Made by a program: the position numbers and the translations under genes
Shown: positions 2,307 through 47,031 of the stretch, one piece after another
How the letters are laid out: each line of letters starts with the position of its first letter
Numbering within the stretch: the stretch's first letter is position 1
Notes under the pieces: generated by a model
What the model saw: the letters and a program-made list of their open reading frames with translations, nothing else
Told to the model about the DNA's origin: nothing
The model's database searches: none
Source: Prochlorococcus marinus bv. HNLC2
Lineage (GTDB): Bacteria > Cyanobacteriota > Cyanobacteriia > PCC-6307 > Cyanobiaceae
Length of the DNA stretch: 49,498 nucleotides
Reading direction: 5' to 3'
Assembly: GCA_000218745.1 (NCBI GenBank)
Contig: GL947595.1
Coordinates: forward strand, 1,331,488 to 1,380,985

Positions 2307-2912
2307 TGGACACTAAATTTAAAAATTTCAATCTTATTTCTTTGCTATTTACTAGGATCCTTTCCAACAGGTTTTTTATTTGGAAAGTATTTGAAAAATA
2401 TAGATTTAAGAAAAATGGGATCTGGCTCTACAGGGGCTACTAATGTTTTAAGAAATGTTGGTAAATGGCCCGCTCTATTTGTATTTATTATTGATGTTCT
2501 CAAAGGTTTTATTGCAGTCAAAATTTCTTATATTTTGATTTCAGAAAGTATTTATGAAGTATTAGCAGGCTCTTTAGCTGTTTCAGGACATATTTGGCCA
2601 ATTTGGCTTAAAGGCAAAGGCGGAAAAGCAGTTGCTACTGGTTTAGGAATATTTATTGCTCTATCATGGCAAGTTGGATTAGCTTCCTTTGGAATATTTT
2701 TATTAGTTTTAAGTTTCTCTAAATTTGTCTCCTTATCAAGCATTACAGCCTCTTTTCTTTTGCCTATTTTTATGTTTTTATATCTAGGAAAAATGGATCA
2801 TCCCTACTTTATATTTAGCGTCTTAGTAGCAGTTTTAATCATTGGTAAACACAAGACAAATATTGCAAGGATTATAAAAGGAATTGAACCAAAAATTAAA
2901 GTAAAAAGTTAA
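2306..2912 (+). CDS. plsY: glycerol-3-phosphate acyltransferase PlsY (start region frameshifted)
   Basis: PlsY is an integral membrane enzyme that transfers the acyl group of acyl-phosphate to the sn-1 position of glycerol-3-phosphate, the first step of phosphatidic acid synthesis. Family signatures are clear: [13 protein letters not shown] in helix 1, [13 protein letters not shown], and [12 protein letters not shown]. The frame holding all of these is open from 2307 but has no usual start codon until a TTG at 2391, which would remove the first helix. ATG 2306-2308 overlaps the preceding stop and enters the correct frame if one G of GG (2308-2309) is dropped. So either an indel lies in the start region or initiation is unusual. 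The end overlaps the convergent pyrF stop. Confidence 0.85.
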
Positions 2913-3628
2913 ATAATACTATTGCAAATTTCTGAAAATATTTTATTGGGATTATTGCTTTTAGTTATAGCTCTTCCTACAACAATTTTTGACGCTCCAT
3001 TAGAAATTGCATCCACTGGTGACATAACTCTACTTTGATCATTTTTATCGTCTATTAAAAATCTAATTCCTGGAGTAATTAACTTAAATTTATCATCATA
3101 TTTATCTCTTAAACTTTTAACTTCTAAAGGAGAGCATACACATCCATCTAAACCAGCATCATAAGTTAATTTAGATAGGCTTAAAACATTCTCTTCAATT
3201 GAAGATTCTCTGTTTAATTCATATTTAAAATCTTGTGGAGATATGCTTGTTAAAACTGTTATTGCAATAACCTCAGGAGGTTTATTATTTATTTCTCTTG
3301 CTCCTTTTATAGTTGCTTCTTTTGAGAGTTGTAATGCTTTCAAACCAGCAGAAGCATGAAGAGAAATAATATCAACTCCTAATTTTGATACATGATAAGA
3401 GGCTGAGCTCATAGTATTTGGAATATCATGGAATTTTAAATCTAAAAATATTTTTTTATCCATATCCTTAAATGTATTTATAATAGTTGGCCCCTCTTTA
3501 GTAAAAAGTTCTAAACCTACCTTAACCCAAGAAATATCAGGGCACCCTTTAAGAAAGGATATAGCCTCATTTCTATCCATACCATCAATAGCAACTATTA
3601 TTTTATCTGATGGATTATTTAGACTCAT
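2909..3628 (-). CDS. pyrF: orotidine 5'-phosphate decarboxylase
   Basis: This 239-residue protein catalyses the last step of de novo UMP synthesis, decarboxylating OMP to UMP in the cytosol. The catalytic signature [10 protein letters not shown] is present near residue 61-70, an early substrate-binding segment (VAIDGMD) lies at the N-terminus, and ITPGIR and VVGRAIT phosphate-binding segments lie near the C-terminus, as in the TIM-barrel family. Its ATG is 4 bases from the tyrS stop, so it is downstream of tyrS in one leftward unit. Its stop overlaps the plsY stop on the other strand. Confidence 0.95.
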
Positions 3629-44111: not shown

Positions 44112-44291
44112 ATGGAAAATTTATCTTTGCCAACTACGTCAATCTCGCCTTTAGTAGCATTATTTTGGTGCTTATACCCTATCGGTATACTTGTTTTGAT
44201 TGAATTAGTACTTGGCGGTGGCTTCGACGATGATAACGATGATCAAGACGGAGGAATGCTAATTCCAGCCTACGCGGGCGCGAAGAGATAA
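44112..44291 (+). CDS. single-pass membrane protein with acidic Asp/Gly tail (59 aa)
   Basis: ATG 44112 opens 59 codons ending TAA 44289-44291. A hydrophobic helix (VALFWCLYPIGILVLIELVL) is followed by GGGFDDDNDDQDGGML and a short tail. N-x-D-x-D-G within this tail fits a calcium-loop start. I believe this is a conserved small cyanobacterial protein of Prochlorococcus/Synechococcus, but its function is not known to me. It lies just upstream of the three RNA-like elements. GC content of the last codons (GCGGGCGCG) is unusual here. Confidence 0.65.
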   Translation: MENLSLPTTSISPLVALFWCLYPIGILVLIELVLGGGFDDDNDDQDGGMLIPAYAGAKR

Positions 44292-44416
44292 ACAACAAAG
44301 AAGTGTCAATATAATTTTTTTTATTCTTGTAAAGAAATTAATTAGTTTTTATTATCATAAAATTAACTTATACCTCATAGATTATAAACTGTATTCATAT
44401 TTTGTATAAGTTTTTC

Positions 44417-44445
44417 TTGAATTATTTTTTTAAAAATCATATAAA
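44417..44445 (+). promoter_or_regulatory. sigma70-type promoter of RNA element 1
   Basis: TTGAAT (44417-44422), a 17-base spacer and TATAAA (44440-44445) form a good -35/-10 pair. The predicted transcript start lies near G44453, the first base of the GTAGA stem. Spacing and position match those of the promoter before element 2. Confidence 0.55.
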
Positions 44446-44452
44446 TATAGTT

Positions 44453-44554
44453 GTAGACCCTGGGAAATCTACAATTCGCAAATTTTTGCGATTATTAATG
44501 AGAATATCCCATTAACCTCCTTTACTTGGCATAGATAAAGGAGGTTATTTTATT
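44453..44554 (+). ncRNA. structured RNA element 1 of 3 with terminator
   Basis: About 100 bases. A 5' hairpin has stem GTAGA (44453-44457)/TCTAC (44468-44472) and loop CCCTGGGAAA. A second hairpin, TCGCAAA/TTTGCGA (44476-44491), follows. TGGGA of the first loop (44461-44465) can pair with TCCCA (44507-44511), a pseudoknot. A terminator with 11-bp stem AACCTCCTTTA (44514-44524)/TAAAGGAGGTT (44536-44546) and a TATTTTATT tail ends it. No start codon with a useful frame lies inside. In size and layout it recalls the small Yfr RNAs of Prochlorococcus, but I cannot say it belongs to one. Confidence 0.6.
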
Positions 44555-44618
44555 GAACTCACATAATCAGTTAAATTAATTTTCTATAAAATAAAAACCT
44601 TTAAGTGTATAAATTTAT

Positions 44619-44647
44619 ATTGTCATAAAACCAAATATCTATATAAA
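44619..44647 (+). promoter_or_regulatory. sigma70-type promoter of RNA element 2
   Basis: TTGTCA (44619-44624), a 17-base spacer and TATAAA (44642-44647). The GTAGAT stem begins at 44657, so the start is near there. The arrangement repeats that of element 1. Confidence 0.55.
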
Positions 44648-44656
44648 TATAAAAGT

Positions 44657-44766
44657 GTAGATATTTGGGAAATCTACTCGCCGTCAGCTTTGATAACTAC
44701 GGTTTTCCGAGAACCTCCCTAACCCTCATTACCTGTCTATAGAGAGGAAATGAGGGTTTCAAAATT
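44657..44766 (+). ncRNA. structured RNA element 2 of 3
   Basis: About 105 bases. The 5' hairpin is GTAGAT (44657-44662)/ATCTAC (44672-44677) with loop ATTTGGGAA. A second stem, CCGT/ACGG (44681-44684 and 44699-44702), follows. GGGA (44667-44670) can pair with TCCC (44716-44719). A 10-bp stem AACCCTCATT/AATGAGGGTT (44721-44730, 44749-44758) ends the element, but the following TTTC is a weak T tract. It shares the 10-mer CTTTGATAAC with element 3. Confidence 0.55.
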
Positions 44767-44877
44767 GCAAAAAGTTAATTAAATAATCTAATAAAAATAA
44801 TATTTAACTTAAAAAATATCTACAAAATTGTATCTTTTTTACTTTTCTAAAAAAATTATTATGTTTATAAATTAATT

Positions 44878-44982
44878 GTAGATCTTGGGCAGATTTGCAA
44901 CCGATTTATCCGGTCTTTGATAACCAGCCCAGTAATAATCCTGACTGCTTTTTGTTATTTTTGCAGTCGGGATTATTTTATT
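44878..44982 (+). ncRNA. structured RNA element 3 of 3 with strong terminator
   Basis: About 105 bases. The 5' hairpin is GTAGAT (44878-44883)/ATTTGC (44893-44898), paired through two G-T wobbles, with loop CTTGGGCAG. A second stem is ACCG/CGGT (44900-44903, 44911-44914). TGGGC of the loop (44886-44890) pairs with GCCCA (44927-44931). The terminator has a 15-bp stem from 44934 to 44977 (AATAATCCTGACTGC with GCAGTCGGGATTATT) and a TTTTATT tail. A -10 TATAAA (44866-44871) precedes it; its -35 is poor. Confidence 0.6.
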
Positions 44983-45067: not shown

Positions 45068-45481
45068 ATGACTAATAAAATTACAAAATCTTCAGAAATA
45101 GAAAATATCTATAAAACCCTTGAATCAGGTTTACAAGAAAATAAATCTATTAAACAATATGCCTTACCCAATGCAAGACAATGGTTAGGAGCCAGATTTT
45201 TTGCTCTTTGGGTTATACCTATTTATATAATCAAAAAATTAAATAATCTCTCTAATTCATCAATTTTTGTAAGACCATACACCCCTTCAAATACAGGGCC
45301 TTCATACAAACAGCCTGAGACTTTATTTACTTCTTTAAAATTAGTTTTCCAAGGCAAAGATAAATTAAGATTTTTTGATCATAGATTTATTGGTATTTGG
45401 GTTTTACCATTTGCTGCTACTGGGATATTTATGGAGATTCTATTTGTAGCTCCATTTAACAATACACCTCCATTTGGTTAA
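45068..45481 (+). CDS. hypothetical membrane protein (137 aa)
   Basis: A 137-residue protein with two hydrophobic helices: about residues 40-57 (GARFFALWVIPIYIIKKL) and 110-131 (GIWVLPFAATGIFMEILFVAP). Between them is a polar, Pro-rich loop with RPYTPSNTGPSYKQPET. The N-terminal 35 residues are soluble. The repeated ALWVIP and GIWVLP suggest an internal duplication. I do not recognise a family. It follows the third RNA element by about 85 bases. Confidence 0.55.
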   Translation: MTNKITKSSEIENIYKTLESGLQENKSIKQYALPNARQWLGARFFALWVIPIYIIKKLNNLSNSSIFVRPYTPSNTGPSYKQPETLFTSLKLVFQGKDKLRFFDHRFIGIWVLPFAATGIFMEILFVAPFNNTPPFG

Positions 45482-46350: not shown

Positions 46351-46686
46351 ATGTTTAATGAAATAGTAGTTGCATATAAAAACTTTTGGATTCAAGCTGG
46401 AAATTTTAAAGGATTAACTACCAGATCGGATTGGTGGTGGGTTCAATTAATTAATTTCATAATTTCAGTAGTCACACTTCCATTTTTTTACAAAACTTTT
46501 GGCTTTAATGTATACGGCCTAATCTGTTTAGTACCTCAGATTGCCATTGATATTAGAAGAATAAAAGATTTTGGTAAGGATTGGAAGTGGATATTTATAA
46601 ATTTAGTACCAATAATAGGGTGGTTAATATGGTGGCTTTGGATGGGTTTTGGCAAATCAGGAAGAGGCAAAAATAACTTTATTTGA
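46351..46686 (+). CDS. DUF805-family membrane protein
   Basis: A 111-residue membrane protein of the DUF805 family. The N-terminal YKNFWIQAGNFKGLTTRSDWWW is the family signature (Y-x-x-F..R-x-x-F/W-W), followed by two hydrophobic helices, IDIRRIKDFGKDWKW (the conserved R-R-x-H/K-D-x-G block) and a last helix IIGWLIWWLWMGFGKSG. Often linked to stress or phage response in bacteria, with no settled function. Confidence 0.82.
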   Translation: MFNEIVVAYKNFWIQAGNFKGLTTRSDWWWVQLINFIISVVTLPFFYKTFGFNVYGLICLVPQIAIDIRRIKDFGKDWKWIFINLVPIIGWLIWWLWMGFGKSGRGKNNFI

Positions 46687-46896: not shown

Positions 46897-47031
46897 ATGT
46901 CCAAACCTAAATTCATCGAAAAAGAAAAGTTAGTCGCTGAGCAGTTAAACGGAAGGTTTGCAATGCTTGGTTTCATTGCTGCAGTTGGTGCATACTTAAC
47001 CACTGGTCAGATTATACCTGGATTTGTCTAA
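46897..47031 (+). CDS. hli: high-light-inducible protein (Hli, 44 aa)
   Basis: ATG 46897 opens 44 codons ending TAA 47029-47031. The chlorophyll-binding signature AEQLNGRFAMLGF (ExxNGRxAM) is present in a single transmembrane helix that ends GAYLTTGQIIPGF. Such one-helix proteins sit in the thylakoid membrane, bind pigment and protect photosystems under excess light. It lies close to a second hli gene at 47160. NblS-type kinases control hli genes in cyanobacteria. Confidence 0.92.
   Translation: MSKPKFIEKEKLVAEQLNGRFAMLGFIAAVGAYLTTGQIIPGFV

Follow-up and report, generated by a model that had tools for sequence, protein, structure and literature searches.

The window analyzed in this study, a stretch of 49,498 nucleotides from Prochlorococcus marinus bv. 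HNLC2, carries three structured elements on its + strand, which start at 44453, 44657, and 44878 and are each about 103–110 nt long. In terms of organization, every element shows a -10 box, a 5' hairpin (P1), a second hairpin (P2), a pairing between the P1 loop and a downstream strand, and a terminator hairpin. The GTAGA hairpins with GGG loops that an earlier sequence-only reading had reported at these positions can be read directly, the P1 loops of elements 1, 2, and 3 being CCCTGGGAAA, ATTTGGGAA, and CTTGGGCAG, respectively. The second hairpins and terminator-like hairpins that it had proposed are present in all three elements according to both sequence and folding.

Element 1, a putative sRNA gene, spans 44453..44547 (+) from P1 to the end of the terminator stem, and its full RNA is predicted to be about 103 nt. 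P1 is located at 44453..44472 (+), where 44453-44457 pairs with 44468-44472, and the 5' strand of the pseudoknot, TGGGA at 44461..44465 (+), has its partner TCCCA at 44507-44511. The P2 hairpin at 44476..44491 (+) was listed by a generic scan and also found by folding, and folding places the terminator hairpin at 44513..44547 (+). Upstream, a putative -10 box, TATAAA, is read at 44440..44445 (+), and the promoter-upstream motif TGTATAAGTTTTTCTTG at 44403..44419 (+) has no other exact match in its own genome.

The putative sRNA gene of element 2 extends over 44657..44758 (+) from P1 to the terminator stem end. It comprises P1 at 44657..44677 (+; 44657-44662 with 44672-44677), the pseudoknot strand GGGA at 44667..44670 (+; partner TCCC at 44716-44719), P2 with a conserved AGCTTTGATAA loop at 44680..44703 (+; alignment and folding), and the terminator hairpin at 44721..44758 (+; folding). 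The putative -10 box TATAAA is read at 44642..44647 (+), and the upstream motif at 44606..44622 (+) shows 2 mismatches to TGTATAAGTTTTTCTTG. Element 3, likewise a putative sRNA gene from P1 to the terminator stem end, covers 44878..44977 (+), with P1 at 44878..44898 (+; alignment and folding), the pseudoknot strand TGGGC at 44886..44890 (+; partner GCCCA at 44927-44931), P2 at 44900..44914 (+; ACCG/CGGT, ACGG/CCGT in other clades), and the terminator hairpin at 44934..44977 (+; folding). Its putative -10 box TATAAA is read at 44866..44871 (+) and its upstream motif is TGTATCTTTTTTACTTT at 44829..44845 (+). The sequence CTTTGATAAC, claimed to be common to elements 2 and 3, is present in both. 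However, we do not consider it a fixed shared box, because its place differs, being within the P2 loop of copy 2 and 3' of P2 in copy 3, and because most relatives of element 3 carry another sequence, ATGAACC replacing it in 69 of 80 (loci of the best 80 of 104 relatives of the ORF described next, in named genomes; this locus set is used throughout).

Downstream of element 3, an ORF of 137 aa with two predicted membrane helices lies at 45068..45481 (+) and is the genomic partner of the RNAs. An ORF of 59 aa at 44112-44291 (+), 5' of element 1, has hydrophobic stretches and an acidic GGGFDDDNDDQDGG tail, and a similar ORF is also located 5' of the RNAs at locus L372. Further downstream of the RNA locus are a DUF805 protein at 46351-46686 (+) and a 44-aa Hli-like protein at 46897-47031 (+), the latter with a weak Chloroa_b-bind match below the cut-off.

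Conservation of the pseudoknot

The three loop pairings TGGGA/TCCCA, GGGA/TCCC, and TGGGC/GCCCA are all present on direct reading, and copies 1 and 3 do differ by an A-T to C-G change that keeps the pairing. The covariation that had been suggested on this basis extends to homologous loci, in which loop and partner do not vary independently; compensatory changes (GGG/CCC, GAG/CTC, and GGC/GCC forms) keep them paired, and all copies (78 of 78 for element 2, 81 of 81 for element 3) form the three core pseudoknot pairs. Among the 78 copies of element 2, the loop and partner are AGGGC/TCCCT in 59, AGAGA/TCTCT in 7, TGGGA/TCCCA in 4, and AGGGC/GCCCT in 1, along with others, and 61 have a C-T or T-T mismatch at the outermost position. 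In element 3, TTGGC/GCCAA is found in 69 of the 81 copies, TCGGC with GTCGA in 3 or with GCCGA in 1, and TGGGC with GCCC- or GCCT-type strands in 6, and there are two further single forms. Moreover, the GC pair of the element 3 P2 stem is swapped to CG in 6 of 36 sequences. We infer that the fold of the RNA, and not the letters that form the pairs, is under selection.

On the tree of the neighbouring ORF, the double changes placed in element 2 are GC-AT, AT-GC, AT-TA, and AT-CG, two of them at the middle pair, and those in element 3 are GC-TA and TA-CG. The independent compensatory events are few (about six), and a branch-coincidence test was significant for one pair (p = 0.003 for the element 2 middle pair, 0.18 for the element 3 second pair, and no same-branch changes at the remaining pseudoknot pairs). 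In the MAFFT alignments, the true register gives 93.9% paired cells in element 2 versus 37.7–55.9% when slid by 1–3 columns, and 97.0% in element 3 versus 27.4–53.7%. The loop of the HNLC-type rows is one column out of register in these alignments, so these pairing counts are lowered, and the counts of forms given above come from a separate parsing. Of 36 registers scanned, the true one had the top rank in each element; in element 2 the runners-up came close. The count of doubly changed cells was matched in 0 of 500 shuffles for either element, that of paired cells in 6/500 for element 2 and 0/500 for element 3, and the covariation score in 14/500 and 0/500, respectively. Two other measures gave no support: the pairs changed on both sides were reached in 428/500 (element 2) and 238/500 (element 3) shuffles, and the further pair types in 500/500 and 63/500.

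Folding of the whole elements was more stable than that of shuffles (z = -4.2, -2.9, and -5.4 for elements 1, 2, and 3), and the P1 hairpins alone were weakly significant (z = -0.7, -2.1, and -2.9). Nested folding favours a form without the pseudoknot, in which the UCU of an opened P1 is paired to an AGA located 5' of the 3' strand. In element 2, the conservation of this UCU/AGA pairing (97.1% of cells) is on a par with that of P1 (92.4%), and therefore we consider P1 less certain than the loop pairing. As read from the alignment, the UCU/AGA pairing fails in most relatives of element 3. The helix between the loop and the downstream strand is present in both forms.

Predicted promoters and terminators

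The -10 boxes reported by the sequence-only reading hold (TATAAA at 44440, 44642, and 44866), whereas the -35 boxes were not confirmed: no classical -35 box was found, and a generic sigma-70 scan listed no + strand promoter at the three elements. This generic scan gave 9 promoters versus a shuffle mean of 12.7, that is, fewer than in shuffles. The distance from the -10 box to P1 is 9 nt for copy 2 and 6–7 nt for copies 1 and 3. About 50 nt ahead of every copy lies a TGTA-led motif (TGTATAAGTTTTTCTTG and variants), at about -51 to -33 in the window. At the loci examined (best 80 of 104), the motif, at about -57 to -42, together with a -10-like box was found in all 162 of 162 copies, namely 5/5 of element 1, 77/77 of element 2, and 80/80 of element 3. 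The HNLC-type copies carry it as TGTATAA-GTTTTTCTTG, and other copies carry variants. Activators commonly sit near -42. Considering that an upstream motif centred near -42 is common to all copies, the copies are probably induced together.

We searched six genomes for the HNLC form of the motif with up to 2 mismatches, using the reversed pattern as a control. The exact matches (2 in G204, 2 in G081, and 1 in G000) were, by position, all at element 1 or 2 promoters, and the element promoters of G203, G109, and G022 were unmatched because their form of the motif differs. A wider regulon of this motif was not supported, the matches versus the reversed control being 24/10 in G000, 29/24 in G204, 20/17 in G081, 16/19 in G203, 19/23 in G109, and 22/15 in G022.

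The terminator stems have a median of 11.5–18 pairs. When the terminator pairs were banned in folding (6, 47, and 62 distinct sequences for elements 1, 2, and 3), the median cost was 15.2, 15.8, and 19.8 kcal/mol, with minima of 14.5, 14.3, and 6.9 kcal/mol, respectively. The U-runs that follow are modest (median 3.5–4 U in 8 bases). Notwithstanding these U-runs, constitutive termination is to be expected because banning the terminator pairs is so costly. The three long terminator hairpins are absent from the generic scan, whose limits on loop and U-run exclude them. No conserved promoter is seen in the spacer between element 3 and the 137-aa ORF, so transcription might continue from element 3 into the ORF.

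Distribution and family membership

BLAST of each element against 200 genomes of the Prochlorococcus genus (E up to 0.01) matched 24, 85, and 24 genomes for elements 1, 2, and 3, with many weak, short, chance-like matches. We therefore describe the distribution with two covariance models, R1 for element 2 (35 sequences) and R2 for element 3 (36 sequences). R1 matched 128 of 266 genomes of one Prochlorococcus genus (E up to 0.1), and R2 matched 145 of 265 genomes of the Prochlorococcus genus g1. Among the R2 matches listed, the E values jump from 1.5e-10 straight to 2e-3. The weak model matches elsewhere were chance-like at the 14 places examined, several apparently in coding sequence. In a family-wide search of 201 genomes from 59 genera, R2 matched 7 genomes, all of genus g1, and there was no match in the 58 other genera, genome G275 being among those with none; the filters of these large searches are stricter, and weak matches are lost by them. 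Within the window, R1 recognizes element 1 (E 1.7e-6) and R2 recognizes element 2 (E 0.0019), and accordingly the three elements are best read as one family.

Among the loci examined (best 80 of 104), element 3 adjoins the 137-aa ORF in 80 of 80, element 2 lies within 1 kb in 77, and element 1 occurs in 5, namely in HNLC1 and four MAGs of uncultured Prochlorococcus. Elements 2 and 3 in tandem are found in about half of the genus g1 genomes sampled. The locus L129 is damaged, having lost the 5' half of element 2 and the terminator of element 3 while keeping the 137-aa ORF. At two of the 80 loci (best 80 of 104), L138 and L139, two genes lie between elements 2 and 3, a CRP/FNR-family regulator gene at 2712-3299 (+) and a 96-aa ORF, and both RNAs, element 2 included, are intact. 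The regulator matches Pfam HTH_Crp_2 above the cut-off, with no NCBIfam model above the cut-off, and it could be the activator acting at the shared -42 motif. We count the intact RNAs on either side of these genes as independence of the elements. In G050, a second full set lies about 360 kb from the first (L253:3420-5528), with a 122-aa ORF, long psbF (see below), a 61-aa ORF, both RNAs, and the 137-aa ORF. Phage origin was considered and rejected: viral contigs gave no RNA match, and viral contigs and phage records gave no ORF match. At the DNA level, one Synechococcus phage matches 35 bases of the region (E 2e-3), and these lie in the upstream 59-aa ORF.

Sequence conservation across the locus was compared in 71 of the 80 loci (best 80 of 104), leaving out HNLC-type and unparsed rows. 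The mean pairwise identity of the RNAs was 0.939 for element 2 and 0.938 for element 3, that of their promoters 0.838 and 0.857, and that of the spacers 0.584 and 0.438, the last being the spacer ahead of the ORF. The first 180 bases of the 137-aa ORF gave 0.831, and its third codon positions 0.672.

Partner ORF and long PsbF

The RNA (R1) and the 137-aa ORF occur together: 125 of 265 genomes have both, 2 the RNA only, 4 the ORF only, and 134 neither. The R1-positive genome G211 was left out of this count (later sets comprise 265 of the 266 genomes), and its contig carries both RNAs, the 137-aa ORF, and a long form of PsbF. In the two RNA-only genomes the RNAs lie at contig ends, the G169 contig ending 52 bases past element 3 and element 3 of G013 starting at base 11 of its contig. 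Among the ORF-only genomes, G032 and G184 are cut by contig ends, and G172 and G076 have remnants of 39 residues with a stop and of 28 residues, respectively. The broken remnant of G172 lies near 3490-3605 (-) of L248, which has no RNA match. The RNAs and the ORF stay together in differing surroundings, as at L371 and L372, and their co-occurrence may come from linkage alone. The 137-aa ORF matches no Pfam or NCBIfam model, and its structural model shows two long helices at low confidence (pLDDT 56).

The RNA is associated with long PsbF in a similar manner: among the 265 genomes, 121 have both, 6 the RNA only (including G206, G054, and G224), 3 long PsbF only, and 135 neither. The Fisher p-values for these co-occurrences ignore relatedness. 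The distance from long psbF to the RNAs is about 776 kb in G000 and about 652 kb in G204, and because the two are unlinked in these genomes, linkage cannot explain the whole association; shared ancestry may. Long PsbF has 98 aa (for example, L194:7506-7802 (-) and L302:4312-4608 (-)) and shows FTVRTAAVNALGIP or FTVRTLAVNALGIP in place of FTIRWLAVHALAIP, the sequence of ordinary PsbF in MED4, so that a histidine is replaced by an asparagine. We take this histidine to be the residue that normally binds heme. A 61-aa paralog of the N-terminus of long PsbF adjoins long psbF in the HL loci examined.

Comparison with known RNAs

The sequence-only reading had proposed a possible relation to Yfr-type RNAs. 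Our results argue against it, as there was no Rfam family, no reciprocal model match, and no Yfr1 motif. Using Rfam covariance models, no family reached threshold at the locus and nothing plausible was found up to E 10. As a control, Yfr8, 10, 11, 13, 17, 19, 20, and 21, Cyano-1, and 6S matched at their published coordinates in MED4. With filters off, R1 and R2 matched the 14 Yfr loci of MED4 at chance level (best E 0.56 and 0.26, respectively). The sequence ACTCCTCACAC, which we take to be the Yfr1 motif, was not found anywhere in the window (0 matches) when up to 1 mismatch was allowed. The MED4 Yfr and 6S coordinates were taken from the accessible parts of PMC1242208 and PMC2518516. On the one hand, the new RNAs resemble Yfr sRNAs in being short intergenic RNAs of the same genus with their own (here predicted) promoters, some of them multi-copy; Yfr11 and Yfr16 are likewise a similar pair according to the accessible part of PMC2518516. 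On the other hand, they show no sequence or structure match to Yfr sRNAs, and MED4 (G015), from which those were described, has no R1 match, no R2 match, no 137-aa ORF, and no long PsbF.

Yfr103, an sRNA that picocyanobacteria carry in several copies, has a conserved motif at -29 to -58 and is 290–328 nt long in the Synechococcus CC9605 paralogs, as given in the accessible part of PMC5069720, which names Prochlorococcus homologs in SS120, NATL1A/2A, MIT9303, and MIT9313 and no others. The present elements are similar to it, as far as that part of the source describes it, in being predicted multi-copy picocyanobacterial RNAs with a conserved upstream motif. Nevertheless, identity with Yfr103, which has about 300 nt and occurs in LL Prochlorococcus and Synechococcus, was rejected, with 103–116 nt here and R2 matches in genus g1 only, of the 59 genera (201 genomes).

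In H-type pseudoknot riboswitches such as those for fluoride, SAM-II, and preQ1, a hairpin loop pairs with a downstream strand and a terminator follows, and some of them pair past a second hairpin. The elements differ from these riboswitches in having no Rfam match at E up to 10, terminators that cannot be switched in folding, and a -10 box and motif for every copy. Type III toxin-antitoxin RNAs (ToxI) are repeated pseudoknot RNAs next to one small gene. The present elements are like ToxI in that repeated pseudoknot RNAs adjoin one small gene, the 137-aa ORF, but they are apparently separate transcription units, and the poor model of the ORF shows no known toxin fold.

Within our limited literature search, no description of this RNA family was found. 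As far as examined, sRNA surveys of Prochlorococcus come mainly from MED4 and NATL2A. The work of Voigt 2014 is reportedly a transcriptome of MED4 and MIT9313. Considering that MED4 is without the locus, the published ncRNAs of MED4 cannot include this family, and a well-conserved sRNA family could have gone unnoticed. According to the accessible part of PMC7368042, a survey of 2020 reassigned reads to NATL2A and MED4, and that of PMC2518516 states that 10 of the 12 Prochlorococcus strains sequenced by 2008 are without Hfq.

Discussion

Our computational analyses of the three elements revealed conserved pairing, covariation, a defined distribution, and a -10 box, an upstream motif, and a terminator hairpin for each copy. 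These elements apparently represent a real and new sRNA family. The proposal that they are three separate sRNA genes rather than one leader is supported, as each copy has its own -10 box, motif, and terminator, and we consider that they are probably stand-alone sRNAs; this fits better than a leader because folding offers no way to displace the terminators. We infer their transcription, their activation, their action in trans, and their partner from these features. In the model that we favour, three tandem non-coding RNA genes of one family, 103–116 nt each, would be transcribed separately, and each RNA would begin at P1 and end at a strong intrinsic terminator. The P1 loop would pair with the strand just 3' of the conserved (U)GA-AACC stretch, forming an H-type pseudoknot with P2 inserted. 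The shared motif near -42 would lead to joint induction of the copies, probably by an activator, and the RNAs would be structured trans-acting regulators, recognized by their fold and most likely by a protein. These RNAs would most likely be concerned with the 137-aa membrane protein encoded next to them and with the thylakoid proteins that accompany it (long PsbF). Co-induced, fold-recognized, stand-alone sRNAs are favoured because the fold is kept while the letters change, the motif is shared, and the terminators look fixed. As a whole, the explanation of three tandem, co-induced, structured trans-acting sRNAs of one new family, linked to the 137-aa and long PsbF proteins, seems to us fairly probable, whereas the coupling of the RNAs to the 137-aa protein, taken alone, is tentative, possible rather than probable.

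The chief rival is attenuation of the ORF by element 3, because no promoter is seen between them (44% identity in this spacer). In such tandem attenuators or orphan riboswitches, the pseudoknots would sense a ligand and control read-through of the terminators into the 137-aa ORF. The order of pseudoknot, terminator, and gene, the constant partnership with the ORF, and a topology that appears similar to that of known H-type riboswitches would fit. Against it stand a separate -10 box and motif for every copy and terminators that folding cannot displace. An AATGAG/CTCATT antiterminator can be read in most copies of element 2 but not in those of HNLC type, and element 2 is still intact at the loci in which a regulator gene comes between it and the ORF; we judge this explanation unlikely. 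We regard it as improbable to a similar degree that the RNAs are ordinary antisense sRNAs acting in trans, in which the single-stranded AGCUUUGAUAA loop of element 2 or the J strand pairs with distant mRNAs and the 137-aa ORF is a mere neighbour. The element 2 loop is among the best conserved single strands, and its complement TTATCAAAGCT is located at +63 of one ORF, presumably prephenate dehydratase-like, in 3 genomes examined and at apparently matching positions in 3 further genomes. One of these positions, though, is in G172, which is without the RNA, so that coding conservation may explain the match. In addition, the +63 match is not among the examined matches of two HNLC-type genomes (one G000 match aside), and the loop is absent from element 1 and most element 3 copies. 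These matches did not establish a conserved target of the element 2 loop.

A pair of the type III toxin-antitoxin kind, with the 137-aa protein bound and inhibited by the pseudoknot RNAs, would account for repeated pseudoknot RNAs, a terminator, and then a small gene that are kept or lost together. Nevertheless, it appears very unlikely, considering that the ORF is without a Pfam or NCBIfam match and is predicted to form two long helices rather than a ToxN-like endonuclease, although at low model confidence (pLDDT 56), that the RNAs are single 100-nt units and not short repeats within one transcript, and that they are better conserved than the protein gene. Still less credible, and close to negligible, is that the RNAs are short coding RNAs, as could be suggested by an AUG ahead of the pseudoknot strand, with which a peptide frame begins in most copies of element 3. 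Although ATGAACC in 69 of 80 element 3 copies is followed by an open frame of 24–46 codons in 65 of those 69 (best 80 of 104 loci), the variable columns of this frame number 17, 16, and 15 at codon positions 1, 2, and 3, without a third-position excess, and the start codon is missing from 11 of the 80 copies. The corresponding frame of element 2 reads MRTSL in 69 of 77 copies and has 5 codons in 71 of 77 (best 80 of 104 loci).

Returning to the stand-alone, fold-recognized sRNAs, the tandem pseudoknot copies, with varying letters, a constant fold, and a patchy gene set, provide a testable case of RNA regulation. A further idea, speculative and rather doubtful at present, is that an RNA-protein unit made up of the pseudoknot RNAs and the 137-aa membrane protein controls an optional thylakoid module. 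If this is true, the RNAs of such a unit would perhaps be sensors of a ligand or protein, or sponges, and the thylakoid module would include a PsbF variant without the usual heme histidine and would be gained or lost as a whole in high-light Prochlorococcus.
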